Source: a virus. Taken from it: a stretch of DNA of 29,217 nt. The translations under genes and the position numbers were made by a program. Positions within the stretch are counted from its first letter, which is position 1, and every line of letters begins with the position of its first letter. The DNA lies in IMG/VR virus record IMGVR_UViG_3300007511_001876, positions 1 through 29,217 of that record. One strand, given 5' to 3'. Shown in pieces: positions 5,663 to 29,175 of the stretch. The notes beneath the pieces were generated by a model. It had not been told where the DNA came from. It worked only from the letters and a program-made list of their open reading frames with translations, and ran no database searches.

Positions 5663-5670
5663 TATAAATA
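5663..5670 (+). promoter_or_regulatory. T4-type late promoter TATAAATA
   Basis: The octamer TATAAATA matches the T4 late promoter consensus exactly. It stands 35 bases before the ATG of the gene at 5705, with a normal leader and a ribosome site in between. No other exact copy was found in the window on either strand. Confidence 0.65.
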
Positions 5671-16678: not shown

Positions 16679-17779
16679 ATGAGCATTTTAGAATTTAAAG
16701 CGTTTTTAGAAGAATACGATTTTTCCGAAGTTTTTGACATGAAACATAAGGTTGATGGTCATTGGATTCAAAAGCCAAATGCCCATTCTTTTGTGTTTAG
16801 CCTACCGGGGGAGGATCAGTGTTACGGTCCAGGTGGACAACAACCATGTTGGTCTGCGGATTTTGCTGGAAATCCTGAATCAGCAGTAGAGGTTTCCTTT
16901 GCCCACGCTACAACAAAGTATGATGATAGAGATATGGGCCGTGCAAATGCAACCATAATTGGCACAGCAGTAATTCAAGCTCTTCAAGAATATATTACCA
17001 AATTTAATCCGGCCATGTTGCATTGGGGGGCAGCACAAAAGACTAGAGAAAAAACAGCAGATACCACAAATAACGACAAAGCACGACAAAAAATTTATGC
17101 TCTGTGGTTTAAGAAAAACATGTTTCCATCCAGATATGTGCCTATTCCAAAAATAGCTGAAACTGATTTTGATGATTCATCAATGGACAGCAACCCTCAA
17201 ATGTGGGTGAGAAGAGATTTATACGATTCTAATTATGTCCCTAAAGGTTATCCACAAGTGCCGCAAGGAAACGGTTCTCGTGTTTATAAGCAATTCATAG
17301 ATAGTTTGCATAGCAATGTGAATAATCTCAATCAACAAGCGCAAAATGCACGCCAACAGCAGGCCGCACAACAACAGGCCGCAGCAGAACAGGCGATTGG
17401 AGATCCTAGATATAATCCTCAACGCCTTGGTAACTGGGAAACAGTGATGGATATGAACCCAGCAGCGTCAGGAGGCATGATGTATCAATCTACTTATGGT
17501 CACATTGGAAAAATTACAGGATTCAGCATGAGTAATGATGGCCAATTGATGGCTCATGTTTCGTGGGAACAAGACAAAGAGGGAAATCCCGCAGATAGTA
17601 ATAGTTTATCCCCGACTGTTCCAGTTAGTCACCTTAAGCGTGTTAATAAAAACAAGCAAGTTAGACGGGCTAGAAACATAATGCAACAACAGGCTCAACA
17701 GCCACAACAAGCTGCTCCTGCGCCTGCCGCACCGGCACAATCTTGGCCGGATGGAGCACAGCCCTTGGGAGTGCATTAA
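16679..17779 (+). CDS. Putative internal virion protein with capsid-targeting-like N-terminus
   Basis: This 366-residue protein begins MSILEFKAFLEEYDF, a form of the F-K-x-(W/F)-L-x-E motif shared with other proteins here. Residues about 25-175 look like a folded domain with many aromatic residues (GHWIQKPNAHSF; PAMLHWGAAQK; ALWFKKNMFPSRY). A Gln/Ala-rich linker follows (about 218-240), then a second small domain with the pattern of a beta-rich SH3-like fold (GHIGKITGF, LMAHVSWEQD), and a Gln/Ala/Pro-rich tail. Function unknown. The ATG lies seven bases after CATAAATA without a clear ribosome site. The last bases are shared with the stop of the convergent gene. If the N-terminal motif is a targeting signal, this is an internal head protein. 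Confidence 0.65.
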   Translation: MSILEFKAFLEEYDFSEVFDMKHKVDGHWIQKPNAHSFVFSLPGEDQCYGPGGQQPCWSADFAGNPESAVEVSFAHATTKYDDRDMGRANATIIGTAVIQALQEYITKFNPAMLHWGAAQKTREKTADTTNNDKARQKIYALWFKKNMFPSRYVPIPKIAETDFDDSSMDSNPQMWVRRDLYDSNYVPKGYPQVPQGNGSRVYKQFIDSLHSNVNNLNQQAQNARQQQAAQQQAAAEQAIGDPRYNPQRLGNWETVMDMNPAASGGMMYQSTYGHIGKITGFSMSNDGQLMAHVSWEQDKEGNPADSNSLSPTVPVSHLKRVNKNKQVRRARNIMQQQAQQPQQAAPAPAAPAQSWPDGAQPLGVH

Positions 17780-18558
17780 TACCATTTCATATTTGTGGCG
17801 ATTGCCTCAGCTATTTCATCTCCCGTTTGTGTTGGAAAGAAGTTCCAGTCCATATCGCTGGGCATGATTCCCCAATCAACACTACGCCCACAATGATTTT
17901 CTATGTTCGTATTTATTAATCGGATCACTCCGGTTTTATGGTCATAACTTATATCTGTGAGATTTTCCAAAACGCGCTGTTGGTCTTGCGTTTCTACTCC
18001 ATGACCTCGCAACTCCATCTTGATGATATAATTAGAGTCGGATATTTTTTTGATGCCCTCAAATATGAAGATGTCTTTTGCTGTTCGCCTCATTTTATTT
18101 GCCATATTGACAACAAGGTTTTCCAGCATTTGTTCATCGAACCCTTCTTTTTTAGGACTGTCTAAGGGTTGTTTGTCAATTAACTCTACGAATTCAAAAA
18201 GTTCTTGGGCTACTTTTTCTTCATGCCCACCATAGCCAGCACGGTTGATTTGGAAGAATTTTTTCATTGCCCAAACAGGCTTGTGTTCTAGGCTTATGCC
18301 TAATCTTTCGATACCCATTTGCAGGCCGGTTCCTGTCCAAATCCTGATGGCACCAACTCCTTCTCCCCATTGGATTTGATCCATGAATTGCAAGTGTGCT
18401 CTCTTGCCCGGCAACTTCAATTCATACAGGTGCTCCATCATTTTTTCTAGATCGAATCGGTTGACAGGAGTATCAGATTCTTCTTTTTTATTATCTTTGT
18501 TAATATCCTTCTCGAACCCGAAAATATCAACACCTTCAAACCATGTCTTAAATTCCAT
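17776..18558 (-). CDS. Putative internal virion protein with capsid-targeting-like N-terminus
   Basis: This 260-residue protein begins MEFKTWFEGVDIFGFE, with the F-K-x-W-(L/F)-E motif followed by a glycine, which matches the T4 head-protease cleavage pattern (x-E|G). A charged linker (KDINKDNKKEESD) separates it from a mixed alpha/beta domain from about residue 35 to the end, rich in Trp and Met. No catalytic motif was recognised. The ATG at 18558 has GGGTGA upstream, and a TATATATA-containing divergent region lies a further 30 bases back. Its stop (TAA) overlaps the TAA of the convergent gene within a single TTAA. Its role is unknown beyond the suggested packaging. Confidence 0.62.
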   Translation of the reverse strand: MEFKTWFEGVDIFGFEKDINKDNKKEESDTPVNRFDLEKMMEHLYELKLPGKRAHLQFMDQIQWGEGVGAIRIWTGTGLQMGIERLGISLEHKPVWAMKKFFQINRAGYGGHEEKVAQELFEFVELIDKQPLDSPKKEGFDEQMLENLVVNMANKMRRTAKDIFIFEGIKKISDSNYIIKMELRGHGVETQDQQRVLENLTDISYDHKTGVIRLINTNIENHCGRSVDWGIMPSDMDWNFFPTQTGDEIAEAIATNMKWY

Positions 18559-18590
18559 ATTTCACCCAAAATTTAAATGTCTGACTCAAT

Positions 18591-18598
18591 TATATATA
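18591..18598. promoter_or_regulatory. Palindromic TATATATA between divergent genes
   Basis: TATATATA lies between the genes at 18558 (minus) and 18607 (plus). It reads the same on both strands and is a one-mismatch match to the late consensus, so it could be a shared bidirectional -10 element. On the plus side it ends eight bases before the ATG at 18607. Confidence 0.35.
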
Positions 18599-18606
18599 GA
18601 GGTATG

Positions 18607-19023
18607 ATGAAAACGTTTCGAGTATGGTTAGAAGAAAAGGATGATGGCGACATTCAAGCCACAATCCTAGATCGGCTAGGTTTAGACAAAAACACTGGCT
18701 TGGGGACTTCGTTGGGTCATTTTGACCACGACAGCAATGGTGAACCATTTGTTTTGCGACAGCTTCAAGATTTGGGATTTTGGAAATCACTTCCCCCAGA
18801 AAAGACGGCTGAAGCAAGAAATATGATAATGAGTGGTGACAAAACTGTTGGTGAATTAATTCAATCATTAAACAGCAGCGTTGATCCTACTGAAAAAGTA
18901 GGTGTTTCCCCACCTGAAGGTGAAGAGCCAAAGAAAGAGAAGCCACCTGAACCTCAGTCACAACCATCTCAGGCACCCGTACCTCCTCAAGGTGGTCAAC
19001 AACAATTGCCCGCCCCCATGTAG
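18607..19023 (+). CDS. Putative internal virion protein with capsid-targeting-like N-terminus
   Basis: This 138-residue protein begins MKTFRVWLEEKDDG, with the shared F-x-x-W-L-E-E motif. Its start M-K-T is the same as in T4 internal proteins I and III. A small domain of about 80 residues follows (DILDRLG-like helices, GHFDHDSNGEPF), then a Pro/Gln/Glu-rich disordered tail (about 95-138). The ATG at 18607 was chosen from two adjacent ATGs because of AGAGG upstream; an in-frame ATG at 18577 would add ten residues and place the motif internally. Its stop is eight bases before the phosphatase gene, with which it forms an operon. Confidence 0.65.
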   Translation: MKTFRVWLEEKDDGDIQATILDRLGLDKNTGLGTSLGHFDHDSNGEPFVLRQLQDLGFWKSLPPEKTAEARNMIMSGDKTVGELIQSLNSSVDPTEKVGVSPPEGEEPKKEKPPEPQSQPSQAPVPPQGGQQQLPAPM

Positions 19024-19031
19024 GGGAGAAT

Positions 19032-19673
19032 ATGGAACTGATCTTAATTAGACATGGCGAGAGTCACTTTAATACTAAAGATACTCACGACTTAGATAGT
19101 CCCTTGACACAAAGAGGACGGCAACAGTGTTTCTCTTGCGGTGCGTTCTTGCGCCGAAAATTCGATAACATGAGAGACTGGAAAGGTTTAGCTAGTCCCT
19201 TTATGAGAACTCTCCAGACTGCTGATATTTTAAATCGTTATACTGAATGTGGTTTTGAAATAGAATGGCAAGCGAGAGAATTTGCTCACATTTCTAGTGG
19301 GTATAGCGGAGAAACCATATTAAAACTGCCATGTCACAAGAAAAAGTTTCCCGATTTTTACCCCGAAAATCTTCCTGATAATTATGTTTTCACTCAAAGG
19401 ATGGAGACTAATGAGGATTTAATTGATCGAGTTAGTGAGTTTGTAACAGAATTACGGGATGAAGATGGAAAGTATATAGTGGTGTCCCACGGTCAGATGA
19501 TATACACCATGATCTATGTGCTGAATGGGTCTTATTGTGTTCCCATGTGGGATAAAAAGGTTTTAAATACCAGTGTTACATATTTTCAAGATGACAACAT
19601 GGTTTATTTCGCAAGATATGTGAACGGAGGAAAAGACCCCCGTAAAGAATCTTGGGAATATGTTATGCTTTAA
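19032..19673 (+). CDS. Histidine phosphatase family protein (phosphoglycerate mutase-like)
   Basis: This 213-residue protein belongs to the histidine phosphatase superfamily. It has the catalytic L-I-R-H-G-E motif (residues 5-10, H8 phosphorylated in the family), the typical D-S-P-L-T-x-x-G-R-x-Q segment (22-32), S-P-F-x-R-T-x-Q-T-A (second arginine region, 55-64) and the second catalytic histidine in VVSHG. Family members dephosphorylate small molecules, sugars or proteins. The ATG at 19032 has GGGAGA upstream. It follows the motif-bearing gene by eight bases but has no FKEWL-like N-terminus itself. Its TAA overlaps the stop of the convergent kinase gene within TTAA. Pairing opposite a kinase-like gene is notable but may be coincidence. 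The substrate is unknown. Confidence 0.85.
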   Translation: MELILIRHGESHFNTKDTHDLDSPLTQRGRQQCFSCGAFLRRKFDNMRDWKGLASPFMRTLQTADILNRYTECGFEIEWQAREFAHISSGYSGETILKLPCHKKKFPDFYPENLPDNYVFTQRMETNEDLIDRVSEFVTELRDEDGKYIVVSHGQMIYTMIYVLNGSYCVPMWDKKVLNTSVTYFQDDNMVYFARYVNGGKDPRKESWEYVML

Positions 19674-20233
19674 ATATAACCACCTTCATATTTATCATCT
19701 TTTAGAAAATCTTCAATTTTTGGGTCATTGTGCCAATTCTGCAACATAGGAAGAATTGCTTCGGGAGGAATCCCATGTTGGTTCAATCCTGATAATTCAG
19801 CAGCCGCAGCCTTCATCTTCTCAGGGTCTTTAAAATACAGCATCTTTTTGATTTTTTCCCATTGAGGGCTTTGCGGTTCCACGAATCTTATTTCGTATTT
19901 ATGTTGCAGACCCAAATCAACATAAGGCTTCATAGCCCATTTAGTTATGTTGGTGTTATCTACCACAATAGGTGAAATCCCTTGCTGCATAGCCTTCATA
20001 ACTCTGTCTTGGTTGAGTTGGTGATAAAATGGCATTAATTCCAATTTCCTAGCTCTCGTCATTTGGGACGTATACTCTTCTTTATCTTTGGAAAAGTAAT
20101 CATCTGTGGAGAATGTGGCTCCACCGTCTTTAATGAGTCTCATTACGGTGCTAGATTTGCCCGTGCCGGAAGGCCCACGCATGATGTAAAGCATCTTTCC
20201 TTCTGATTCTGTCAACCAATGTTTGAAACTCAT
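19670..20233 (-). CDS. P-loop polynucleotide-kinase-like ATPase with capsid-targeting-like N-terminus
   Basis: This 187-residue protein is a P-loop kinase of the AAA_33 / N4BP2-like group that includes polynucleotide kinase domains. Walker A is GPSGTGKS (20-27), S-T-D44-D45 fits the catalytic acid site after the second strand, and I-V-V-D-N-T-N (89-95) is the hallmark segment of the N4BP2-like kinases. The helical C-terminal third contains an R-F-V-E-P strand. The N-terminus, MSFKHWLTESEGK, is the FKEWL-type motif followed by S-E-G, and is separate from the kinase domain, which begins at about residue 14. The start at 20233 lacks a ribosome site; TATATATG stands two bases upstream. It may end-phosphorylate nucleic acid or another hydroxyl; the motif suggests it may be packaged in the head. 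Confidence 0.8.
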   Translation of the reverse strand: MSFKHWLTESEGKMLYIMRGPSGTGKSSTVMRLIKDGGATFSTDDYFSKDKEEYTSQMTRARKLELMPFYHQLNQDRVMKAMQQGISPIVVDNTNITKWAMKPYVDLGLQHKYEIRFVEPQSPQWEKIKKMLYFKDPEKMKAAAAELSGLNQHGIPPEAILPMLQNWHNDPKIEDFLKDDKYEGGYI

Positions 20234-20278
20234 AACATATATAAATTACTTGTATTGATAATTTTTTGGAGCATAAAG

Positions 20279-20398
20279 ATGGGATGTGGTAGTTGTAGTG
20301 GATGTGGTGGTGGTGGCAAAGGCCGAAGTCGCTTAAAGAAACGCAAAGTCATCCCTAATAAAAAGGTGGTCAGCAGTGCGAAAAAAGACAAAAAATGA
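20279..20398 (+). CDS. 39-residue Cys/Gly-rich basic small protein
   Basis: A short gene with ATG at 20279, ten bases after GGAG, and stop TGA at 20396. The product begins MGCGSCSGCGGGGKGRSR and continues with a Lys/Arg-rich tail. Three cysteines in a glycine-rich N-terminus and a basic remainder suggest metal or disulfide chemistry together with nucleic acid binding, or a lipid-like N-terminal modification (M-G-C). No family is assigned. It overlaps the next gene by 23 bases in another frame, so the genes are probably co-translated. Confidence 0.6.
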   Translation: MGCGSCSGCGGGGKGRSRLKKRKVIPNKKVVSSAKKDKK

Positions 20399-20618
20399 TG
20401 CCAGCACCAGTGTTGTAAACGCCATAACAGCTATGGCTAAATCAATGAGTGGAGTTTTTGGTAAATACAGCCGTCAAACCAGAACGAAGGCTTGGAAGAG
20501 ACTCTCCAGTGCCAAAGGCGATAAAGAAATGGCCAAATTAGCTCTGAACCCTAAACGACCCCTAAGTAATTTTAGAAAGTTGCAGTTTAAAGAATGGTTG
20601 AATTCACAAGATGGCTAG
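20376..20618 (+). CDS. 80-residue basic protein ending in a capsid-targeting-like motif
   Basis: This protein starts with GTG at 20376, seven bases after AGGTGG, and is very basic (about one quarter Lys and Arg) with small helices, which suits DNA binding or head filling. Unlike the others it carries the motif at its C-terminus: K-L-Q-F-K-E-W-L-N-S-Q-D-G, just before the stop. The bases that encode this motif are also used, in another frame, to begin the next gene, whose own N-terminus again has F-x-x-W-L. This may be a C-terminal targeting signal, or a sign that gene boundaries have moved. The function of the body is unknown. Confidence 0.6.
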   Translation: MRKKTKNDASTSVVNAITAMAKSMSGVFGKYSRQTRTKAWKRLSSAKGDKEMAKLALNPKRPLSNFRKLQFKEWLNSQDG

Positions 20619-21106
20619 AAATGAGAGATAGACTCTTTCAATATTTGCAATCTCTAGTTCCTAATTGGCCTCCTTATGTGGTTAAGGATTGGATTTATCA
20701 GGCCCATAAAGGAAAAGATGAATTCTACCGTCGCGATCCAAATCAAGCTGCTGAGTTTTTACAATATGTTGCCACAAATAGCGGGTATTCCGATCCGAAA
20801 CAAATACAATGGCAATTACAGGTTTTGCCAATGAGAATGGATTTGTTTGATAAAAACACAAGAGCACAATTAGAATCCAGAGTGGGAGGTCAATCACACA
20901 ACGCATACAACAGCGATCAAAGACATGCTACACAAGCCAACATGGTTGCCAATGCCCCTTCACAAGAACCTGTTATTATGGCTATAACCCCAAGTGGGTA
21001 TTGTTTGATAGAAGGCTGGCATAGAACAGTAGAATCATTAAAAAATTGGCCACAAGGGTATAATCAAAAAGCGTGGACTTATAAATCTCTTAAAGATTTA
21101 ACCTAA
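20594..21106 (+). CDS. ParB/sulfiredoxin-like protein with capsid-targeting-like N-terminus (putative)
   Basis: This 170-residue protein begins MVEFTRWLEMRDRLF, a variant of the shared motif. A helical domain with several Trp and Gln residues follows (about 15-90). Near the C-terminus, E-P-V-I-M-A-I-T then L-I-E-G-W-H-R-T-V-E (about residues 124-147) resembles the ParB/sulfiredoxin fold, where a conserved (G/E)-G-x-H-R motif binds nucleotide. Only this part is recognisable, so the enzymatic state is uncertain. The ATG at 20594 lies inside the upstream gene and has no good ribosome site. The gene ends nine bases into the UvsW-like gene on the other strand. Confidence 0.45.
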   Translation: MVEFTRWLEMRDRLFQYLQSLVPNWPPYVVKDWIYQAHKGKDEFYRRDPNQAAEFLQYVATNSGYSDPKQIQWQLQVLPMRMDLFDKNTRAQLESRVGGQSHNAYNSDQRHATQANMVANAPSQEPVIMAITPSGYCLIEGWHRTVESLKNWPQGYNQKAWTYKSLKDLT

Positions 21107-22528
21107 ATCTATTTCTTCTCGTATTGCCACTGGATGACCTTCTTTACTTAGAATTTTCACTCTGGTCTCAGCATGATCTCTTAAATATCCGTTGATGTTA
21201 AAAAAGAAGTCGTAATACTTAAGAACATCTTTATCACCTGCCGTCCTCAAACCACGCCCCATTCTTTGAATCACACTGCTTTTGCCTTTGCCACCTGCTG
21301 CATTGATTAAATTGTGAATCTTGACATTTAAGCCCTTGGAAATAATCTTCTGACTGACTATGGCAATTACGTTTTCCGAGCTTTTTAATTTATCAATGAC
21401 CTCTTTTCGATCATCAACCTTGTCCTTGCCTTGAATCCAATGAGCACCTGGAATCATAGCCGCCAATGCATCTCCCTGTTTTAGCCTTTCAACTAAAACT
21501 AAGGTTCGCCCCTTGCATTTGGTGGCTACGGTTTTAACCATATCGTGCAAGTGGGGATTTTCAGCTATACCTGCTGTAACTGCATCTTGGAATATTTCAT
21601 AAGGCAACTGGGGTTGATTGACTTCAAAAAACACACATTCTGAACCTGATAGGATGCCTCGCTCTTGAAGCTCCGCAGTAGTTAATTCACCCGATTCTGT
21701 AGCTGAAGTCCTGAATATAGATCCAAAGTAACCCTTGACCTTATATTTTTCTTCTTGATTATCGTATGGAGTAGCACTGATAGCAATGCGAACTGGGGTG
21801 TTTTTTAATTTCCTGTATACTGAAATAGGAACATCACTCATACAGGCATGAATTTCGTCTACCAATACAGCTCGTATTTTTGGGAATATCTTTTCTAATT
21901 TTCTAACTGATTGAGTTGTAGAACAGGTGATTACATTAGGTTCTTTCTTCTTGCCATGAAGCACTCCTACATTCGGTATCCCCGCCTTGATAAGTTCATC
22001 TCGGTTTTGCTCTGTTAAATCTATGGTATCGGTAAGAACCAGGGTTGGAGTGTTAGGCGGGAGTGCCCTCATAATACCAGCGAATACAAAGGTCTTACCA
22101 GCAGCCGTTGGAGCTTTCACTATGCCCCTTTTATACTTAGCTGCGGCATTAATTAGATCCACTTGATAGTCGTATAATTCAATGTCCCCACCATCATCTG
22201 CTAAACTGTGATCCCATTGATTTAAAAATAGGCTATCCACTTCCTTGTGGTGGAAATCAAAAACCTTTCTTTTGTCTTGTATTTCGTATCTGACTTTGAA
22301 TTTGTGCTTCAAAGCAAAGAATACTTCAGGAAGCAAACCTGTTAGAAATCGACCTGTTTTAGGACTGAAGAAATTAACATATCCATCCCACTTTCTCTGG
22401 CGATAAGCAGGCGAAAATATATAGCCTTCTCTGCGGGCACGCAAAGCCTCATGCAATATCTTCTTGATTTGCATGTCACGAGTGAGAAGCTGAGAGTAAT
22501 TATTGTTTATTGATACAACGTAATCCAT
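21098..22528 (-). CDS. uvsW: UvsW-type SF2 DNA/RNA helicase
   Basis: This 476-residue protein is an SF2 helicase. Walker A is APTAAGKT (139-146), motif II is DEIH (224-227), motif III SATP (251-254), and motif VI QRMGRGLR (421-428). An N-terminal domain of about 115 residues with an F-S-P-x-x-R-x-R-x-W-D-G segment precedes the helicase core, as in T4 UvsW (503 residues). UvsW remodels stalled forks and unwinds R-loops, and so helps the switch from origin- to recombination-dependent replication. The ATG at 22528 lacks a ribosome site; the -10 element of a sigma70-type promoter lies six bases upstream. It also overlaps the convergent ParB-like gene by nine bases. Confidence 0.87.
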   Translation of the reverse strand: MDYVVSINNNYSQLLTRDMQIKKILHEALRARREGYIFSPAYRQRKWDGYVNFFSPKTGRFLTGLLPEVFFALKHKFKVRYEIQDKRKVFDFHHKEVDSLFLNQWDHSLADDGGDIELYDYQVDLINAAAKYKRGIVKAPTAAGKTFVFAGIMRALPPNTPTLVLTDTIDLTEQNRDELIKAGIPNVGVLHGKKKEPNVITCSTTQSVRKLEKIFPKIRAVLVDEIHACMSDVPISVYRKLKNTPVRIAISATPYDNQEEKYKVKGYFGSIFRTSATESGELTTAELQERGILSGSECVFFEVNQPQLPYEIFQDAVTAGIAENPHLHDMVKTVATKCKGRTLVLVERLKQGDALAAMIPGAHWIQGKDKVDDRKEVIDKLKSSENVIAIVSQKIISKGLNVKIHNLINAAGGKGKSSVIQRMGRGLRTAGDKDVLKYYDFFFNINGYLRDHAETRVKILSKEGHPVAIREEIDLG

Positions 22529-22534
22529 GAAGAT

Positions 22535-22563
22535 ATTATAATGAAATTTATATCAAATTTCAA
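22535..22563 (-). promoter_or_regulatory. Sigma70-type promoter giving a leaderless uvsW transcript
   Basis: On the minus strand TTGAAA (22563-22558), exactly 17 bases, and a perfect TATAAT (22540-22535) lie in front of the uvsW ATG (22528), with only six bases between. The first transcribed base would be at the ATG. The -35 element reaches into the end of the preceding gene. Confidence 0.65.
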
Positions 22564-23897
22564 CCATAAGTTCCAGTTTGAGGAACGACTTTCCCGTGGT
22601 TTTGACGCAACCAACGTTTTAAGTCATCTGGGGCCATAACAGGGAGGCCGCAATCTTTACATATTGGCCCAAGTTCATTGTCATATTCCTCTTCGGTGCC
22701 GCCACACGGATGCCCTGGCCACCCTGGACATGCTGTTGTTGGTTCTGGTGCTGGCTGTTTGTGTAATGGAGAGTTTATTAAATGTGCCCCTGGTTGATTA
22801 GGGTCTTGAGCTAATGTGGCTGTCCTGTCGTTTCGTGGACGACCTTTGCCCCATTTTAAAAGCACGCCTCGTTTGTATGTGCCTCTTCTTTTAGAAGTTG
22901 CAATATGTTTTTCACTTCCTGCGCCCCAATCCTTAGAAGACTGTTGGACGACCCAATTCATAACATCATTTCTTCTGTAGTCTCTATCTAAAAAATTAGG
23001 ATCTCTAGTGTTTCGCAACCAATGATCTAATGACCTTTTAAATATTTCCTCTCTCCTCTCTAACATCCCTGGATAAGAATGGTGTCTTCGTAGCTTTTTG
23101 AGAGCAACATCAATACCCCAATTAACATCTTCTTCTAATTCTTCTCTGCTAAAAATAGGAGCCTTTCCTAGTCCATGTCCACGAACTTCTCTATCCATCC
23201 TGTTGGGGTCATATGATTGATAATCTGCTGTTTCTTTACCACTGCGACTCAATAAAGGTAACGGCAATAGTTGAAAACCAGTCTTTTGAATCCACGCTTC
23301 AAGCCCACGACCACTAGGCATACGAGACTTTCCATGCTTAGTGCGACCCCCTTCTCTTCCTAATGTTGCTTCAACATCTATACCTCGTTGTTCGGCAGAC
23401 CACCTAATCCAACCTTTTTTCTTATTTGCTCCATTTAATATGCTTTTAGCTTGGTTTACGTGCATAAGCCTTAAACCTGCTAATTTTGTTGGGTCGTCTG
23501 GCTCTATGTTTCTTAGGTCGAAACCTTGATTTCTTTTTTTGGTTGGTTCTTCTGAAAGGTGTCTTAATTTAGCAATTACTTTTCTTAAAGTTTGGGGGGT
23601 GCCTTTTCTTATTATGATTTTATCATGGGAAGGCTTGATGGCATATTTAAGTCCACTTCCGTATCTCCAAGCTAATTTATTGGCCCAATCATATTTTTCT
23701 GGTGGCTTTTCTAAACCTGGATATGGCCCATTATAATTCATCAAAAAATCAGCGTCCTCTTGGTCTAGCGGCACATATAGTCGTAAGACATCATACATTG
23801 CCATTTCTTGAAACGCCATTTCAAATAAACATCCAAGACCGTCTCTCAAATACAAAGGATCACTTGTTAGCCATTCATTAAAATTCAACTGATGCAT
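22560..23897 (-). CDS. Large putative internal virion protein with C-terminal zinc ribbon
   Basis: This 445-residue protein begins MHQLNFNEWLTSDPL, with the shared F-x-E-W-L motif. The body is basic and rich in Arg, Lys and Trp, with several low-complexity stretches (for example GREGGRTKHGKSRMPSGRG near 180-200). The C-terminus carries C390-x7-C398-x14-C413-x2-C416, a likely zinc ribbon. A middle segment with many charged residues (about 265-335, KKLRRHHSYPG and onwards) has no catalytic motif that I recognise. It may be a DNA-binding head protein. The ATG at 23897 has AGGAAA upstream, and the gene shares a 32-base divergent gap with the gene at 23930. Confidence 0.62.
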   Translation of the reverse strand: MHQLNFNEWLTSDPLYLRDGLGCLFEMAFQEMAMYDVLRLYVPLDQEDADFLMNYNGPYPGLEKPPEKYDWANKLAWRYGSGLKYAIKPSHDKIIIRKGTPQTLRKVIAKLRHLSEEPTKKRNQGFDLRNIEPDDPTKLAGLRLMHVNQAKSILNGANKKKGWIRWSAEQRGIDVEATLGREGGRTKHGKSRMPSGRGLEAWIQKTGFQLLPLPLLSRSGKETADYQSYDPNRMDREVRGHGLGKAPIFSREELEEDVNWGIDVALKKLRRHHSYPGMLERREEIFKRSLDHWLRNTRDPNFLDRDYRRNDVMNWVVQQSSKDWGAGSEKHIATSKRRGTYKRGVLLKWGKGRPRNDRTATLAQDPNQPGAHLINSPLHKQPAPEPTTACPGWPGHPCGGTEEEYDNELGPICKDCGLPVMAPDDLKRWLRQNHGKVVPQTGTYG

Positions 23898-23929
23898 TAT
23901 TAGTTTCCTATTTGATAAGTATATAGGGT

Positions 23930-24625
23930 ATGACTTTGCAATTTAAAGAATGGATTAAGGCAATTCAAATACTTGGCGAAAAAACCACCGGGACCAATTG
24001 GTTGTTGAATATGTGCAGAGCCAATTTCACACTAGAAGTCACAGATAATGGTGAAATATGGAAGCATAGCTGTGTTCCATATTGTAAAGATGTTAAAAAG
24101 ATGCGTCAAGATGTTTTGTATCTACACATATCCAGAAACATCTACATGCTAATAGACTCATTATTCAGAGCAAAATGGCACCAAAAACACATAAGAACCA
24201 TGCCATTTGCTGATTATATTAGAAGTGAGTGGAAGCTGATAGATAAGGGCGATATAGTTCCGGTAGACACCAACCATTATACGAATAGTTTGTTTCCAAA
24301 TGTTGTCCAGATGTTCAATTTTAAAATGAATGAATGGAAGGTCTTATCGGAGAATGTTAAATATTACAAGCACATAAAATACACAGACTTGTTATCTAAT
24401 CCCAGTCAAATGTTGAAAGACATATCAAGGGAATTTGATATTAACTTGAAGCCTGAGATTGTGATAGAAACTGGATACAAGGGGTTCCCAAGAAAAAAGA
24501 AGTTCGATAAAACTAAATATTACTTAAACAAAAGCTATATGAATAAATATCAGCAAAGAGATATTGAGTTTATCAGGTCTCAACTAGACAAAGATATTTA
24601 TGAATTTTACGGTTATGAGGAATAG
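23930..24625 (+). CDS. Sulfotransferase-like protein with capsid-targeting-like N-terminus
   Basis: This 231-residue protein begins MTLQFKEWIK, the shared motif, followed at once by the first strand and loop of a sulfotransferase fold: IQILGEKTTGTNWLL (12-26; G16-E-K-T-T-G-T-N-W24 at the 5'-phosphosulfate-binding position). V-L-Y-L-H-I-S-R69 and the helix that follows (62-80) fit the 3'-phosphate site. HIKYTDLLSNPSQMLKDIS (about 150-168) is the typical late helix. Such enzymes transfer sulfate from PAPS to sugars or other hydroxyls. The gene has no ribosome site; TATATA lies four bases before the ATG. It heads a two-gene operon. A structural homology without activity remains possible. Confidence 0.7.
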   Translation: MTLQFKEWIKAIQILGEKTTGTNWLLNMCRANFTLEVTDNGEIWKHSCVPYCKDVKKMRQDVLYLHISRNIYMLIDSLFRAKWHQKHIRTMPFADYIRSEWKLIDKGDIVPVDTNHYTNSLFPNVVQMFNFKMNEWKVLSENVKYYKHIKYTDLLSNPSQMLKDISREFDINLKPEIVIETGYKGFPRKKKFDKTKYYLNKSYMNKYQQRDIEFIRSQLDKDIYEFYGYEE

Positions 24626-24628
24626 TGT

Positions 24629-25108
24629 ATGCTTTTATTCAAAGAATGGCTACTAACTACAGAAATGTTTGATTCCTCTATGCCTATCCGGTGGACAAAA
24701 AAAACCAGTGCAGATTGGGAAGGTGATTTTCAAATTAATGGTAAACACTATCTCATTAAAATGATGAATGAGCCTCACATGGGGTGGGAAGTTAAATTTG
24801 AACTGCTTCAGGATGGAAAATACACCCAAGATATTACTGGCACTGGCGATGCGGTGGTTGTTCTATCAACAGTTGTGAAAGCAATTCACTATTGGATCGC
24901 TCAAGTGAAACCTCATGCTTTTGCCCTTTCAGCAAGAGAGCCTAGTCGTGCAAAATTATATGCCAGGATGCTGAAGTCGCTGCCTAGAAAGTGGCACGTT
25001 GAAAATATGGGCGGGGTGTTTTTCGTTAGAGACTCAACAGTAGCAGAACCAGCTTACGCTACTGGGTTCGATGATGATGGGTTGAGTGATTTCTACGATG
25101 ATTACTAA
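24629..25108 (+). CDS. Small phage protein with capsid-targeting-like N-terminus
   Basis: This 159-residue protein begins MLLFKEWLLTTEMFD, the clearest form of the shared motif. The rest is a beta-alpha domain: two or three strands (DWEGDFQINGKHYLIK, WEVKFELL), a helix (VVLSTVVKAIHYWIAQV), a strand-turn with A-L-S-A-R-E-P-S-R-A-K-L-Y (about 107-119), and an acidic C-terminus (DDDGLSDFYDDY). The P-S-R-x-K-L-Y signature recalls small phage virion-associated proteins of a GNAT-like shape, but that is from memory and not firm. The ATG at 24629 has GAGGAA upstream and is three bases after the stop of the sulfotransferase-like gene. Its stop overlaps the convergent gene's stop by four bases (CTAA). 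Confidence 0.6.
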   Translation: MLLFKEWLLTTEMFDSSMPIRWTKKTSADWEGDFQINGKHYLIKMMNEPHMGWEVKFELLQDGKYTQDITGTGDAVVVLSTVVKAIHYWIAQVKPHAFALSAREPSRAKLYARMLKSLPRKWHVENMGGVFFVRDSTVAEPAYATGFDDDGLSDFYDDY

Positions 25109-25452
25109 AACCCTTCGGCTTTGACATAGATTTTATCTGGGGCAACTGGAAAATACTTAAACAAAGCCGGGCACAACCAACCTTCTTTTTTAGTGGTCGG
25201 ATCTTGATACCACGTTCCATTATGTTCTTCACGCTGTTTGGTTAATTCTCTTTGAAAATTGGGGAATGGATCGGGCGAGAACAGTAATCTAAACCCCTTT
25301 CTAGCATCAGGAATATCTGCCGTTAGTTCATCGATCATTTCAGGTATGCCCTCAACAAAAGGCTCCTGAACAAGACTGGCTTGTTCGTCGTCAAAGACCC
25401 AAGTTTGAACAGATTCCAGCCAGTAGGGGGAGATAGTGAGGATTTGATTCAT
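25105..25452 (-). CDS. DUF6717-like protein
   Basis: This 115-residue protein has the signature of a family I remember as DUF6717: W-V-F-D-D (residues 18-22), L-V-x-E-P-F-V-x-G (27-35), F-S-x-D-P-F-P (about 58-64) and G-W-L-C-P-A-L-x-x-Y-F near the C-terminus, followed by A-P-D-K-I-Y-V. The family is found in bacteria (planctomycetes and others) and has no known function to me. The start is the ATG at 25452, overlapping the gene upstream by four bases; the open frame extends to 25554 but that part overlaps the upstream gene. The cellular look of this gene and its two neighbours suggests acquisition from a host. Confidence 0.6.
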   Translation of the reverse strand: MNQILTISPYWLESVQTWVFDDEQASLVQEPFVEGIPEMIDELTADIPDARKGFRLLFSPDPFPNFQRELTKQREEHNGTWYQDPTTKKEGWLCPALFKYFPVAPDKIYVKAEGF

Positions 25453-25682
25453 TCGGGTTTTTCTTTTGGGGGAATTTTTGTAATCTGGATCAGGTGCCAG
25501 AGGCCACCACCCATTCCCAAAACAAGTCCACAAAATGTGAAGAGTGGCATACATCCAAGCCAGTTATCTAGCCAGGAACCTCCGATTGGTGGTAGAGCAA
25601 ACATGAAGCAGACAGTGGTTATCTTAGAAACCCACGCCATTGCTTCAGCCATTGGCTGCATTTGATGGTCTTGATCCGGCAT
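25449..25682 (-). CDS. AtpZ/AtpI-like two-helix membrane protein
   Basis: This 77-residue protein has two hydrophobic helices around G-G-S-W-L-D-N-W-L-G-C-M-P-L-F-T (about 35-50). The pattern W-L-D-x-W-L-G-x-x-P-L-F-T followed by a glycine-rich second helix (GLVLGMGGGLW) is that of the AtpZ/AtpI family, encoded beside F-type ATPase genes in bacteria and thought to help assembly or carry magnesium. Such a gene is unusual in a phage. The ATG at 25682 has AAGGA upstream and overlaps the FmdB-like gene by 38 bases. Function in infection is unknown. Confidence 0.6.
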   Translation of the reverse strand: MPDQDHQMQPMAEAMAWVSKITTVCFMFALPPIGGSWLDNWLGCMPLFTFCGLVLGMGGGLWHLIQITKIPPKEKPE

Positions 25683-25935
25683 TGGTAGAGTCCTTCTTTT
25701 TTGGCAATTCCGGTGGTTTTTGCATTTTTGGGACTTCAGGAGGTTTGGGCTTCCTCTTGTAGTCTGTTTCATAGAAACCACTACCCTTGAATATTATAGC
25801 AGCGCCAGCACCAATGAGTCGGCGCAGTCGCATTTTTCCACAAGAAGGACACTTTTTCTTTGGGTTCTCTGTGATCTGCTGGAACAACTCCATAGCATGT
25901 CCACAGCCATTGCATTCGTAGTCGTATGTCGGCAT
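25645..25935 (-). CDS. FmdB family zinc-ribbon protein
   Basis: This 96-residue protein matches the FmdB/CxxC regulatory-protein family along its first 60 residues: M-P-T-Y-D-Y-E-C8-N-G-C11-G-H, then C29-P-S-C32-G, and the typical ending I-F-K-G-S-G-F-Y-E-T-D-Y. The four cysteines bind zinc. The last 35 residues are a Pro/Lys-rich tail. The IFKGSGFYETDY form is common in bacterial homologs, including planctomycetes. A transcriptional role is assumed for the family but not proven. The ATG at 25935 has GAGGAA upstream. It begins a three-gene block of cellular-type genes. Confidence 0.88.
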   Translation of the reverse strand: MPTYDYECNGCGHAMELFQQITENPKKKCPSCGKMRLRRLIGAGAAIIFKGSGFYETDYKRKPKPPEVPKMQKPPELPKKKDSTNAGSRPSNAANG

Positions 25936-25942
25936 AAGTTCC

Positions 25943-27010
25943 TCAATGAACGTGTCTTATGGAGATTATGGGCACTTTCCCTGTCTTGCTTGTAAGTTGG
26001 TAATCTGTGAAATTACCGCCGTCATAATGCAGTATCAAGTATTTGCTGTTGACTCCAATTTCAAACACATCTCTCGTGTCGGCATCTGAAGCCCCCAATT
26101 CTCCTGGTAAGGCCAAGCCCACTGCCCGGCTATAAGATGTGGTTGCCCACAGGCCGCTTGGAACCATTTTGGATTGTTTGGCTCCCATGTAGGTAGCTCT
26201 ATCTCTGCGAGGACGAGCCGTATAAAGTTTCATAGGCTTGCCCCTTGTTGTGCTGCCGGGCTGTCTCAGTTCGGCAATCAAATTGAAGTAATCTGATGTG
26301 GCTTCCGGGGATCTGAAGAAGTCATAATCATCAGAATCTATAATGTCGCCTATATCTTCCACTTTGCCATCTTGGGTAAACAAAGTGAAATCAGGATCAT
26401 ATTCTGCGCTATTGCCAGGAGATTTGACTTTTATGTGGACGGAATCACCCTGTCCTTCAAGCCAATCGTAGTCATGATCGTCTATTTTATAAGGAGTGCT
26501 AATTTCAACCGTGGCATGACTGCTCCAACCCTCTACTCTCGAAATAGCTCCTTTAATTAACTGTATGGTTTGAGAAAGTAGAGCATTGGTCTTTCTCATT
26601 ACTTCTTCATAGGTTTCTTTTACTTGCTCGTCACTGAAACCCTCTTTACTACCACCCAGTTGATCGCCATACATCCTGAATTGCTTTTTGATGTCCTGCA
26701 ATAAATCCCAATTACCATTCCTTTGTTGGAAATAAAAATCGCTTAGCTTCTTTTCCCAAGCGTATCGAGTTTCCCAGTCTTTTATTTTTTGACTTCTTAC
26801 ATCTCGCAATAGCTCTTCTGATTCTGGGAATCCAAATTGACGTAGTTTATGCCTGAAATCCTCTAAATCAAACTTAAATTGACCTAATTGGTAAGCATAA
26901 TCATTAGCCTGATCTGCGAAATTTTGGATATACTGTGTAAGCATCTGTTGATACTTACCCGCATCAACTGTGATGTGTTGGTCTACATTCTCAATTAGAA
27001 ACCTTTTCAT
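25943..27010 (-). CDS. Unknown protein with possible ADP-ribosyltransferase-like C-terminus
   Basis: This 355-residue protein begins MKRFLIENVDQH, then has a long helical part with heptad-like spacing (about 15-165). Its last 90 residues have a pattern (M-K-L-Y-T-A-R-P then V-P-S-G-L-W-A-T-T-S-Y-S-R-A-V, and F-E-I-G-V-N-S-K-Y-L-I-L-H-Y-D) that recalls ADP-ribosyltransferase-type folds, where an arginine on the first strand and an S-T-S-type strand bind NAD. The catalytic glutamate is not clear, so this is weak. T4 packages ADP-ribosyltransferases in its head, which makes the idea attractive. The ATG at 27010 has no ribosome site; GTAAATA stands seven bases upstream, eight bases behind the previous gene's stop. 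Alternatively it is a structural protein. Confidence 0.5.
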   Translation of the reverse strand: MKRFLIENVDQHITVDAGKYQQMLTQYIQNFADQANDYAYQLGQFKFDLEDFRHKLRQFGFPESEELLRDVRSQKIKDWETRYAWEKKLSDFYFQQRNGNWDLLQDIKKQFRMYGDQLGGSKEGFSDEQVKETYEEVMRKTNALLSQTIQLIKGAISRVEGWSSHATVEISTPYKIDDHDYDWLEGQGDSVHIKVKSPGNSAEYDPDFTLFTQDGKVEDIGDIIDSDDYDFFRSPEATSDYFNLIAELRQPGSTTRGKPMKLYTARPRRDRATYMGAKQSKMVPSGLWATTSYSRAVGLALPGELGASDADTRDVFEIGVNSKYLILHYDGGNFTDYQLTSKTGKVPIISIRHVH

Positions 27011-27018
27011 ACATGTAT

Positions 27019-27516
27019 TTACTTATTAGCACTCAATATTCTGGCGGCTGATTCTGATAACATCTCGCCCAGTTTTTCCAAATCAGCAGGATCTAGGTCT
27101 ACTGTGATTTTTACAGATGTGTCATCTCCTTCAAAATCAAACACTAATTCAGGTCTGAATTTATCGCCTTCTATCAATTGCTTACAAGCTACTTCTAGTT
27201 TGGTATCCCCAGGTAAATTTATTTTTACCTTGTCAGCGTAAAGCTCTCCTGTTTCGCTATACCCGTTCTTTGAAGCCGTTTCGTAGAGGTTTTCCCAGGC
27301 TTGATCTGTCGGTTCGCTGTTGAATGTGTTGGTTGGACCTTGACCGTGTTTAACTTCTACATAGAGCTTCCATACGCCTCTTTTATTTTGGGCAACGCCC
27401 TCTTGAATCTTACCTTCTACATCGCACCATTTCCAAAATATTCTATTGGGGCGACTTTCAACGACAACCTCTTCAACTGGCAACATGCAATAACTAGCTA
27501 ATCTGTCTTTCTTCAT
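27019..27516 (-). CDS. Unknown phage protein
   Basis: This 165-residue protein is not recognised. It is acidic and mostly beta in character, with an N-terminal part rich in Trp and Lys (IFWKWCDVEGKI, GVWKLYVEVKHG) and a C-terminal acidic segment (DFEGDDTSVKITVDLDP). No membrane segment or catalytic motif was seen. The ATG at 27516 has GAAGGAA upstream and overlaps the stop of the glycosyltransferase-like gene (TTATGA). It is translated as part of the minus-strand operon that begins at 28884. Confidence 0.6.
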   Translation of the reverse strand: MKKDRLASYCMLPVEEVVVESRPNRIFWKWCDVEGKIQEGVAQNKRGVWKLYVEVKHGQGPTNTFNSEPTDQAWENLYETASKNGYSETGELYADKVKINLPGDTKLEVACKQLIEGDKFRPELVFDFEGDDTSVKITVDLDPADLEKLGEMLSESAARILSANK

Positions 27517-28229
27517 AATTTAAATTCCTTCGTTTCTTGTAGTGTTGGTTTCCGCCAATTACCTTCTCTTCTAAACATATAGGCGCTCACGCAGTCTGGG
27601 TGTAGGCGATAAACAGAGGCGTAAAATGGGACTTTAAGTATGTCCCCGTATGTTCTCTGAATCTTGTGTCGCCCAATCCATTCTACGGACCACTCCCAAT
27701 TATCCATGTTATTGTAGACTATTTTAGAACTCAAAACAACAGAACTTCCACAATGCCTGTTAAAATCTTCTTTGTTGCAAATCAGTTCGCTATCAACCTT
27801 ATAGAAATGACCTCTATCAATAATAAAGACGGGCCTTTTTCTTCTCTTGTTGATGAACTTCACAATCCTATTGGATAACAAATCATCCCCATCCATCATA
27901 AAAAAATGCGTAGGATTAAGACTTTTTACGTCCTCATCTTCAAGCAATGCAAGTCTTTTGGTGGTTTTGTCAAATTTGTGTTCTAAGTAATTTTTATCTT
28001 GTTTGGTGGGTTGATTTATCGGTATTGGGTTTGTGTTGACTATCTTTACCGTTACTTTGGACGTGTCGATGTCTGGATCAAAAGGCAATTCTTTATTGGC
28101 AGCTATAAAGATGTGAAAATCACCTTCATTTGCGAGAATGCTCCTTAGAGTCTGGTTCAGCAACTCCCACAAATAATGGTAACTATTTGAGTTCTGGAAA
28201 TGTTTAATTGGGATTAAAAATGCAATCAT
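27513..28229 (-). CDS. Glycosyltransferase-like protein (GT-A type, putative)
   Basis: This 238-residue protein has features of a GT-A glycosyltransferase. It opens with a strand (MIAFLIPIKHFQ) and a helix, then H-I-F-I-A-A-N-K (about 38-45), and F-F-M-M-D-G-D-D-L (about 109-117), which fits the D-x-D metal and sugar-nucleotide site. R-H-C-G-S-S-V-V-L-S-S-K (about 159-170) fits the strand that follows. The ATG at 28229 overlaps the end of the preceding gene by 26 bases; a TTG 15 bases earlier was rejected. There is no evident ribosome site. It is followed directly by an unknown gene. With the sulfotransferase-like gene upstream it could decorate a glycan. Confidence 0.6.
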   Translation of the reverse strand: MIAFLIPIKHFQNSNSYHYLWELLNQTLRSILANEGDFHIFIAANKELPFDPDIDTSKVTVKIVNTNPIPINQPTKQDKNYLEHKFDKTTKRLALLEDEDVKSLNPTHFFMMDGDDLLSNRIVKFINKRRKRPVFIIDRGHFYKVDSELICNKEDFNRHCGSSVVLSSKIVYNNMDNWEWSVEWIGRHKIQRTYGDILKVPFYASVYRLHPDCVSAYMFRREGNWRKPTLQETKEFKL

Positions 28230-28884
28230 CTGGAATAAAATCAAATAGCTCTTTGGAAATATCTATAAAAATAGGATAACTTAAAATAGCGTCAAGATAC
28301 TCAGGTTCGTCCTTAACTAATTCCCATCTTTGAAATAATTTCATTTTTTGAGCACAGTTGGCATAATCAAATTTATCAAATGTGCTGCCTCCTCCATAAC
28401 TGGCCACTATATTGATGGTTTCATCTGTTTCACACAAATCAAATCTCTTTTCAAGTTCTCTCCTGTAATCAGGACTTGTTACCCAACTGTTGTAATTAAT
28501 AAACTTGTCTGGGTGTGTTTTGACGTATTTGTATAGCTCTAAATACAGGGGAATAAGATTCCTTGTTCCACCGCCTCGGTCTCTAACTATGTTTCTTTCT
28601 TTGAAAAAATTATACGCACTCGCATACCAGTTATAGGGGTCTCTTAATACGATGTAGGGAAGCTCTGTTTCTAAATCTAATTCGCTAAGCATAAAAGGAT
28701 GGATATTTTCATAGGAACAAACAAAATGGTCAAAAGGAACTTCCCCTTCTTCTCTGGCTTGCTCTGGTTTGCCATAATCACTGATATTGTTCCAATAAAC
28801 GTAATTGTCCAAGTGGGCCAAATACCAATTTATGAATGCATGGTTGCCACTGCGTTGAATTCCACAAAATACGTGCCTTAACAT
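28204..28884 (-). CDS. Sulfotransferase-like protein
   Basis: This 226-residue protein has the 5'-phosphosulfate loop G8-I-Q-R-S-G-N-H15, and Y-I-V-L-R-D-P-Y-N-W-Y-A-S-A-Y (77-91) at the 3'-phosphate site. It is homologous to the first 260 residues of the large fusion protein of the minus gene 3360-5633 (shared G-(I/Q)-x-R-S-G-x-H, G-G-S-T-F/R-G-S-S-F, and W-(E/K)-L-x-x-x-x-x-(E/D)-(Y/F) regions). The ATG at 28884 stands six bases after TATATT on the minus strand and has no ribosome site. Its divergent partner begins 33 bases away. It heads an operon with a glycosyltransferase-like gene, in keeping with sulfation of a glycan. Confidence 0.72.
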   Translation of the reverse strand: MLRHVFCGIQRSGNHAFINWYLAHLDNYVYWNNISDYGKPEQAREEGEVPFDHFVCSYENIHPFMLSELDLETELPYIVLRDPYNWYASAYNFFKERNIVRDRGGGTRNLIPLYLELYKYVKTHPDKFINYNSWVTSPDYRRELEKRFDLCETDETINIVASYGGGSTFDKFDYANCAQKMKLFQRWELVKDEPEYLDAILSYPIFIDISKELFDFIPDDCIFNPN

Positions 28885-28906
28885 ACAGATAATATAGTTT
28901 TTGAAG

Positions 28907-28914
28907 TATATATC
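28907..28914 (+). promoter_or_regulatory. TATATATC directly before the gene at 28918
   Basis: TATATATC lies three bases before the ATG at 28918 in a 33-base gap between divergent genes. The same arrangement (AAGTATATA just before the ATG) is seen before the gene at 23930. It may be a late-type -10 element that yields a leaderless transcript. Confidence 0.35.
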
Positions 28915-28917
28915 AGT

Positions 28918-29175
28918 ATGAATTTTAAAGAATGGTTTATGGAAGCAACCGCAAAGACAGACAATCTTGCGGAAGCAATCACAAAAACACTAGAATTTAT
29001 GATTCCTGGTCAGTGGAAGTTTGACTCAAGCGACAATCACCAATGGCACCCTCATAAAGCAATTCGAGTGCATGGATACTTAAAAAATGAGAAAACACCA
29101 CGTCCTTCTCAATATTTCATGTTAGGTGTATTTGCCATTTTTAGAAAAACCCATAAAGACTTACGATTCCATTGA
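28918..29175 (+). CDS. 85-residue protein with capsid-targeting-like N-terminus
   Basis: This protein begins MNFKEWFMEATAKTD. F-M-E-A fits the T4 head-protease site ((L/I)-x-E|A) exactly where cleavage would free the mature part. The rest has a helix (LAEAITKTLEFMI) and a region rich in His, Trp and Lys; no family was recognised. There is no ribosome site, and TATATATC lies three bases before the ATG. The stop at 29175 leaves 42 bases to the window end with nothing to annotate. It may be shortened by a frameshift, which cannot be judged here. Confidence 0.55.
   Translation: MNFKEWFMEATAKTDNLAEAITKTLEFMIPGQWKFDSSDNHQWHPHKAIRVHGYLKNEKTPRPSQYFMLGVFAIFRKTHKDLRFH

Follow-up and report, generated by a model that had tools for sequence, protein, structure and literature searches.

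What does a short peptide do when it stands at the start of many otherwise unrelated viral proteins? This question is raised by a stretch of viral DNA of 29,217 bases (IMG/VR record IMGVR_UViG_3300007511_001876, hereafter the window), which carries a T4-related replication block (gp32, a DnaB-type helicase, a family A polymerase and a UvsW-type helicase) and an 8-oxoG glycosylase gene. From about 16.7 kb onwards it also holds genes whose products begin with a tag of the form F[KRTN][EATVHR][WF][LFI]. Here, we present an analysis of this tag in the window and its relatives, and consider it likely, from its sequence and from analogy with phage T4, that it is a T4-type capsid-targeting sequence (CTS), diverged to W-L-E and placed on tens of proteins per phage. 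The tagged proteins are probably packed in the particle and injected with the DNA into the bacterium.

The tag pattern lies within residues 1-12 of nine of the 40 hand-picked window genes (9371 residues in total), and only ten copies occur in all these residues, the sole copy away from an N-terminus being at the C-terminus of the protein encoded at 20376. When each window protein was shuffled in 2000 trials, the mean was 0.0085 N-terminally tagged genes and the maximum one; chance as the source of the tag in the window is excluded. A looser pattern, F..[WF][LIMF] at residues 3-7, was found in 8 of 41 open reading frames (ORFs) of the window against 0.11 expected. An earlier note, made from the letters of this DNA, had proposed nine N-terminally tagged proteins and a T4-like targeting signal with a varied cargo. 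All nine proteins were confirmed at their coordinates, with one refinement: for the gene placed at 18607 the tagged start is 18604/18607, and not the 18577 at which the longest ORF begins. The tenth copy that it reported is real (FKEWLNSQDG*) and is C-terminal also in the homologue from contig G001 (G and L numbers denote our genomes or contigs and our loci). The motif does not occur equally in replication proteins, since none of the window genes recognised above as replication or repair genes is tagged, and neither are the replication-block orthologues found in up to five relatives (gp32, helicase, PolA, UvsW and the products of 10766, 7330 and 6496).

A search with the window helicase found the uncultured phage LR756511 (595 kb; helicase identity 38%) and G001, a contig of 63 kb. 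These two and the window, none of them found via the motif, form our unbiased set, in which LR756511 is covered over 589 kb. ORFs were called by a simple script, with no gene finder. The motif stands at residues 3-7 in 33 of 1062 ORFs of LR756511 (4.4 expected) and in 4 of 85 of G001 (0.21 expected). Additionally, a DNA scan of viral contigs for an M-K-x-F-x-x-W-[LF]-E-type pattern gave at least 119 stretches, in which K, W and E frequencies are biased by the pattern and from which picked contigs hold at least one tag by choice. The N-terminal excess that the earlier note proposed to look for in relatives is present in LR756511, in G001 and in all 12 IMG/VR contigs picked for the tag, namely G003 (22 of 458 ORFs, 1.3 expected), G050 (14 of 147, 0.47), G031 (9 of 143, 0.36), G011 (10 of 181, 0.8), G022 (9 of 435, 1.4) and seven smaller contigs, of which G039 shows the weakest excess (2 of 18, 0.12). 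At locus L135 (4.8 kb), 7 of 8 called ORFs are tagged. In the larger relatives about 4-12% of the called ORFs carry the tag, chance matches not subtracted; likely chance matches include an aminotransferase (LR756511 113033) and a sulfotransferase-like ORF (G031 80967).

Three large contigs without gp21, the T4 head protease gene, were taken as negative controls. One of them, G067, proved to be syntenic with the window and the most tag-rich of all (25 of 393 ORFs, 1.1 expected), and was regrouped as a relative, leaving two. Of these, G092 had no tagged ORF among 319 (1.1 expected) and G061 had 3 among 391 (1.8 expected), which is no clear excess; neither gp21 nor the T4-type capsid gene gp23 was found in either. 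Among the matches listed in a search of titles and abstract openings of open-licence PMC papers, no earlier report of such a tag in huge phages was found.

In T4, the first 10 residues of the internal proteins bind the scaffold core of the prohead, the head protease gp21 cuts after hydrophobic-x-E, and the mature internal proteins remain with the head DNA and are then injected. According to the review PMC9026906, the first 10 residues of IPIII alone are needed for incorporation, residues 4 and 7 mattering in targeting and residues 8 and 10 in processing. The consensus of the tag is approximately M-K-T-F-[KNR]-E-[WF]-L-E, while T4 IPI begins with MKTFKEF and IPII and IPIII with MKTYQEFIAE. Shared features are an N-terminal peptide of about 10 residues with aromatics at positions 4 and 7, an E two residues after the first aromatic, and unrelated bodies; the likeness extends in part to a hydrophobic residue and then an E behind the tag, and to T4-type gp21 and gp23 genes, found in some relatives. 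The differences are that the second aromatic is W in 56-65% of the tags here and F in T4, that the E here mostly stands right after W-L, that there are tens of cargoes per large genome, and that the carriers are uncultured huge phages. Apart from the exact cleavage register, the tag resembles the T4 CTS in each respect tested. T4 also encodes a hypothetical protein of 54 aa, gp61.1 (gene 61.1, 18966-19130, minus strand), with the CTS-like start MKTFKEFIKED.

The residues of the tags were compared with those of internal copies of the same regular expression, which confines F to residues 3-8 and asks for W or F three residues later; an N-terminal excess is not built into it. Across 212 tagged proteins from 16 genomes or contigs, F ranges from residue 3 to residue 8 and stands at residue 4 in 99. 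In the unbiased set (55 tags against 125 internal copies) the tags are richer in K at F-2 (37% v 6%), T at F-1 (25% v 6%) and K at F+1 (31% v 9%), and in E at F+2 (31% v 10%), F+5 (35% v 10%) and F+8 (25% v 4%). K at F-2, T at F-1 and E at F+2, matching MKT-x-x-E of T4, are thus enriched in genomes found independently of the motif and are absent from the search pattern. For the F and E of the tag, codon choice follows the background (p 0.1 and 0.49), a sign that selection acts on the peptide.

A possible cleavage signature and, in part of the records, T4-type head genes accompany the tag. A hydrophobic-x-E-[AGSNT] site starting within F+3 to F+7 follows 25% of the tags against 6% of the internal copies in the unbiased set, and 45% against 6% in the other twelve contigs; from F+8 to F+40 it shows no excess over internal copies. 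LR756511 holds a PF03420 (gp21) protease at 95.9 bits and a gp23 at 290 bits; its region 525018-526621 contains the gp21-like protease and a putative gp22-like scaffold, so assigned by its position and coiled-coil appearance alone. A second, weaker PF03420 match (34.8 bits) lies in LR756511 at 242621-242989 on the minus strand, far from the head module; phage SPN3US, too, has a diverged protease paralogue, as stated in PMC5694885. Near its N-terminus gp23 contains FLNE-A and GLLE-G in LR756511, G003 and G022, and LLNE-A only in G031, sites that would fit the type found behind the tag; the gp23 proteins of G003 and LR756511 are 75% identical. Among 100 loci, of the at least 119, motif records had gp21 in 14 of 49 cases and the others in 3 of 50, a comparison blurred by an imperfect split, since true motif records such as G067 and the record of L024 had fallen into the no-motif group. 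A gp23 search of 17 records matched 7, five of them at 277-300 bits; these five (G003, G022, G048, G011 and G031) are large IMG/VR genomes with gp21, so gp23 was found in all five of that kind searched. A PF04233 search of eight relatives gave nothing above the cut-off.

Other phages help to place this system. The giant Salmonella phage SPN3US and phiKZ resemble what is proposed here in that head proteins are processed and ejected, and differ in using an S80 protease with A-x-E or S-x-E sites, as described in PMC5694885; PF03420 and gp23-type genes were found in the tag relatives, and the SPN3US propeptide quoted in that paper does not fit the tag pattern. For Klebsiella phage RaK2, PMC3622015 reports a T4-type capsid protein, a protease and 54 virion proteins identified by mass spectrometry. 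RaK2 was considered as a proteomics test of tag packaging and set aside as unusable, with no MK-type tag present. Within the first 50 kb of RaK2 the loose motif is matched by one called ORF, which is a tail tube gene, and the other 296 kb were covered for MK-type tags only. Not all T4-headed jumbo phages, it seems, use the tag.

Several observations weigh against a T4-type CTS. L at F+4 is enriched in the other twelve contigs (71% v 44%) but not in the unbiased set (40% v 46%), and the L codons at that position depart from background (p 1.7e-6). The commonest E is at F+5 (W-L-E), not at F+6 as in I-A-E of T4. Chance accounts for roughly 4 to 11 of the 42 regular-expression matches in LR756511, the cyanophage S-SSM5 holds one tag, and in T4-headed RaK2 a DNA pattern for MK-type tags run over the whole record gave one match, which is not a tag. 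Head genes were not found in many records: gp23 was not found in 10 of the 17 searched, including G050, G021, G010, G040 and G045 of the motif group, and gp21 not in 35 of the 49 motif records. Neither was gp21 found in G001, G050 and G067, which are or may be fragments; G067, which exceeds all others in tags, matches gp23 only in part (60.9 bits). No recognised head gene is present among the genes of the window, itself a fragment. Fragmentation is a likely but unproved cause of the missing gp21 in motif records. Clustering of tagged genes near gp21 (42 seen against 34.2 expected, seven genomes) was rejected as evidence. Finally, one or more of the tagged proteins match PHROGs of tail tape-measure proteins, a poor fit to an injected enzyme.

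The last points also speak for the alternative that the tag docks its protein not on the head core but on another phage or host protein, such as a tail or baseplate part, RNA polymerase, the sliding clamp or a compartment. Short terminal peptides with aromatic residues have many docking roles, and the tape-measure match, the slight clustering near gp21 and the tag-rich contigs without detected gp21 would all suit such a role. We nevertheless regard it as unlikely, given that the tag agrees with the T4 CTS in its sequence, its position and its pattern of E residues, that the replication orthologues found are untagged, that a late-type promoter box (below) precedes many tagged genes, and that tags are not clearly in excess in G061 and G092, the two large contigs in which neither gp21 nor gp23 was found.

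What the tag is joined to bears on a second alternative, in which the lineage is indeed T4-like and most tagged proteins are scaffold or structural head parts instead of injected enzymes. The 286 proteins matching the regular expression, which include chance matches and 7 proteins from T4 and S-SSM5, fall into 225 body clusters at E<=1e-4; the sequence logo left out 6 of the 225 representatives, which have a hydrophobic stretch after the motif. In a Pfam scan of 132 of the 163 representatives of 100 aa or more, some of them chance matches, at most 39 matched any family, and the 36 families have no more than two members each; this scarcity of matches speaks for structural parts. Moreover, beside gp23 in LR756511 the product of 516905 starts with MEFREWF, and that of 520504 has FKEWY about 30 residues into the longest ORF. 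On the other side stand clear enzymes: the window kinase (19670), an RNA ligase (G039 1395), a tyrosine phosphatase (L068), a CCA-type nucleotidyltransferase (LR756511 580680), a C39 peptidase (LR756511 429897), an ArdC N-terminal domain (G011 25493, E 1.2e-5) and an Acb1-like 2H phosphoesterase (G022 262132; L219:15132-15725, minus strand; E 3.2e-9; tag MTFRQFLANE). A flavin reductase (G006 28259) is tagged too. We hold it improbable, to much the same degree as docking elsewhere, that structural parts make up most of the cargo. The product of G022 262132 is, by its sequence, an anti-CBASS candidate. A PADLOC scan of the 132 proteins returned seven families with one member each (best E 6e-12).

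The tag is also found away from the N-terminus. Among five homologues of the 20376 protein, the C-terminal tag is kept in that of G001; in G067 and G050 it is internal and reads on into a longer protein, and in G003 and G006 an N-terminal MKSYKEY takes its place. In the window (20586-20617), two frames overlap such that the FKEWL at the C-terminus of 20376 lies 17 nt from the FTRWL at the N-terminus of 20594. In cultured Vibrio phage nt-1 (L270:733-1653) a two-domain protein has an internal WKEWLSSVNLTE at the start of its 24629-like domain. In Vibrio phage D479 (L271) the 24629 homologue starts with MISFREHLTES and the next gene contains MKTFTQFNEQ. These Vibrio tag-like peptides fall outside the strict regular expression and were judged by eye. 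Such mobility would fit a peptide that is recognised by another protein, with a cut between two products.

Further, many tagged genes share a promoter-like box. The exact T4 late promoter TATAAATA is not enriched upstream (1 of 201 tagged v 27 of 2612 untagged genes) and was rejected as the promoter of the tagged genes; the looser NATAAATA (22 of 201 v 105 of 2612) led to TANATA (TATATA, TAAATA or TAGATA). An exact TATAAATA does occur in the window at 5663-5670, starting 18 bases before the untagged gene 5681. TANATA stands at -12 to -7 in 87 of 190 tagged against 136 of 2419 untagged genes (odds ratio 14), with the start taken beside the tag in the former and as the longest in the latter, which lowers the untagged count. 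In the unbiased genomes, 35 of 50 tagged against 113 of 877 untagged genes have it at -30 to -7. Four AT-matched control hexamers gave odds ratios of 0.3-2.8, with AATTAT mildly enriched (2.8, p 0.003). The first base of the box is at -11 or -10 in 93 tagged cases, and a smaller untagged peak (94 cases) at the same place indicates that the box is not confined to tagged genes. When every start in the first 20 codons was tried, 161 untagged genes had a box at -12 to -9; untagged genes with TANATA include the uvsW orthologues of G050 and G022 and proteins with degenerate tags. T4, S-SSM5, G092 and G061 show no TANATA peak at -11/-10. In the window the box lies close before five of the nine tagged genes (16679, 18604, 19670, 23930 and 28918) and the weakly tagged 25943.

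Like the T4 late promoter, TANATA is a TA-rich box with a TAAATA-like core, and uvsW, which has it in G050 and G022, is late in T4. It differs in its position at -11/-10 from the start codon in the tag clade, where T4 has no such box, in N being T, A or G, and in the leaderless mRNA that it predicts. If TANATA works as the T4 late promoter does, with the distance to the transcription start taken from general knowledge of T4, transcripts would begin at the start codon. The position of the box points to late mRNAs without a leader in this clade. That enzymes useful early should be expressed late would make most sense if the enzymes are packaged. Matches to gp55, the type of sigma factor that reads the T4 late promoter, were weak and occurred in 4 of 10 records (best E 3e-5), with none in G067, G050, G011, G001, G092 and G061.

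A box so close to the start leaves little space for a Shine-Dalgarno site, and the motif could then be a by-product of translation starts, a nucleotide downstream box favoured by leaderless late mRNAs; the deviating L codons at F+4 would agree with this. We judge it very improbable, as 134 of the 265 genes with the box have no canonical or degenerate motif, F ranges over residues 3 to 8, F and E codons are at background, and the motif is found inside or at the end of proteins too. Least credible of all is that the tagged proteins, for all their common first residues, are divergent members of one family with a kept N-terminal domain, since the 286 bodies form 225 clusters and different Pfam families, and the tag is predicted outside the confident fold in the model of the 17776 protein.

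Features of the window that carry the tag, with genes named in the text by their lower coordinate and box positions relative to the start codon
Coordinates	Strand	Protein	Sequence	Tag	TANATA box	Pfam/PHROG
16679..17779	+	tagged protein, 366 aa	MSILEFKAFLEE	FKAFL, 16694-16708	TAAATA 16666 (-13)	no match
17776..18558	-	tagged protein, 260 aa	MEFKTWFEGVDIFGF	18538-18552	none at start codon	
18604..19023	+	tagged protein	MMKTFRVWLEEKDD	FRVWL, 18616-18630	TATATA from 18591 and 18593 (18591-18598)	
19670..20233	-	tagged P-loop kinase (polynucleotide-kinase-like)	MSFKHWLTESEGK	20213-20227	TATATA 20238-20243 (-10)	AAA_33 E 1.4e-13; ATPase phrog_2071 3.2e-24; phrog_505 3.1e-6
20376..20618	+	small protein, C-terminal tag; DNA overlaps start of 20594		FKEWL, 20586-20600		
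20594..21106	+	tagged protein, 170 aa	MVEFTRWLEMRD	20603-20617	none	no match
22560..23897	-	tagged protein, 445 aa	MHQLNFNEWLTSD	23868-23882	none close; TATATA only at -28	no match
23930..24625	+	tagged protein, 231 aa	MTLQFKEWIKAI	23942-23956	TATATA 23920-23925 (-10)	no match
24629..25108	+	tagged protein, 159 aa; domain common to Vibrio phages	MLLFKEWLLTTEMF	24638-24652	none	phrog_16075 3.1e-12, phrog_6387 9.4e-9 (both uncharacterised); DUF6934 sub-threshold
25943..27010	-	probable extra cargo, 355 aa	MKRFLIEN	short, degenerate	TAAATA 27016-27021 (-11)	
28918..29175	+	tagged protein, 85 aa	MNFKEWFMEATA	28924-28938	TATATA 28907-28912 (-11)	

Among the ten window proteins scanned against Pfam and PHROG, only those of 19670 and 24629 match known families. 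Of the cargo labels in the earlier note, kinase-like was confirmed for 19670. The labels sulfotransferase-like, ParB-like and zinc-ribbon are unsupported here, as neither Pfam nor PHROG gave a match at E<=0.01. Homologues of the kinase are tagged in two of four cases (G003 and G067, the latter with V at the last place), with a degenerate tag in G001 and none in LR756511. Both 24629 homologues found, which are genes of G067, are tagged at the start. In the 17776 family, the tag is present in all five relatives with an orthologue, and its F and W are invariant in the six aligned sequences, at 26-42% identity to the window protein. An AlphaFold (AF2) model of this protein (pLDDT 70) places the tag in a short helix (residues 3-9) within a low-confidence N-terminus (1-33), and a comparison with PDB and BFVD gave no structural match at E<=0.001. 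The 25943 product is a probable extra cargo by its sequence, and the sole orthologue found, in G050, has the N-terminal MKTFYQFLEN; a structure model of this protein (pLDDT 44) was discarded. With the DNA patterns used, no relatives of 19670 and 25943 were found in IMG/VR.

Returning to the T4-type CTS with a varied cargo, this proposal of the earlier note gains support, at the level of sequence, from the consensus, gp21 and gp23 in relatives, the enriched E site, the untagged replication orthologues and the promoter-like box. In the mechanism that we envisage, tagged proteins would be transcribed late, alongside the head genes, as the TANATA box suggests, and their aromatic residues would dock them on the scaffold core, as in T4. 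A gp21-type protease would cut just behind the tag, which the site enrichment points to, and the cargo would be packaged and injected, so that the kinase, the Acb1-like protein and others could act at once on the host or its defences.

More broadly, and tentatively, at just short of an even chance, these data may describe a clade of huge T4-headed phages with modular delivery, in which one peptide label, often together with a leaderless late promoter, loads proteins into the head. With each particle, tens of different enzymes (anti-CBASS, anti-restriction, nucleic-acid repair and signalling) would enter the cell as a pre-made counter-defence set. The Vibrio phages nt-1 and D479 are cultured and represent possible laboratory models, and the claim on leaderless late genes would become testable if the reading is true. 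In that case the T4 CTS would no longer be limited to a few proteins of a single phage group but would serve a broad cargo system of huge phages, and a label of ten residues would tell from sequence alone which proteins uncultured giant phages inject. As most tagged proteins have no Pfam match, the label would also be a route to new counter-defence proteins and host-takeover enzymes.

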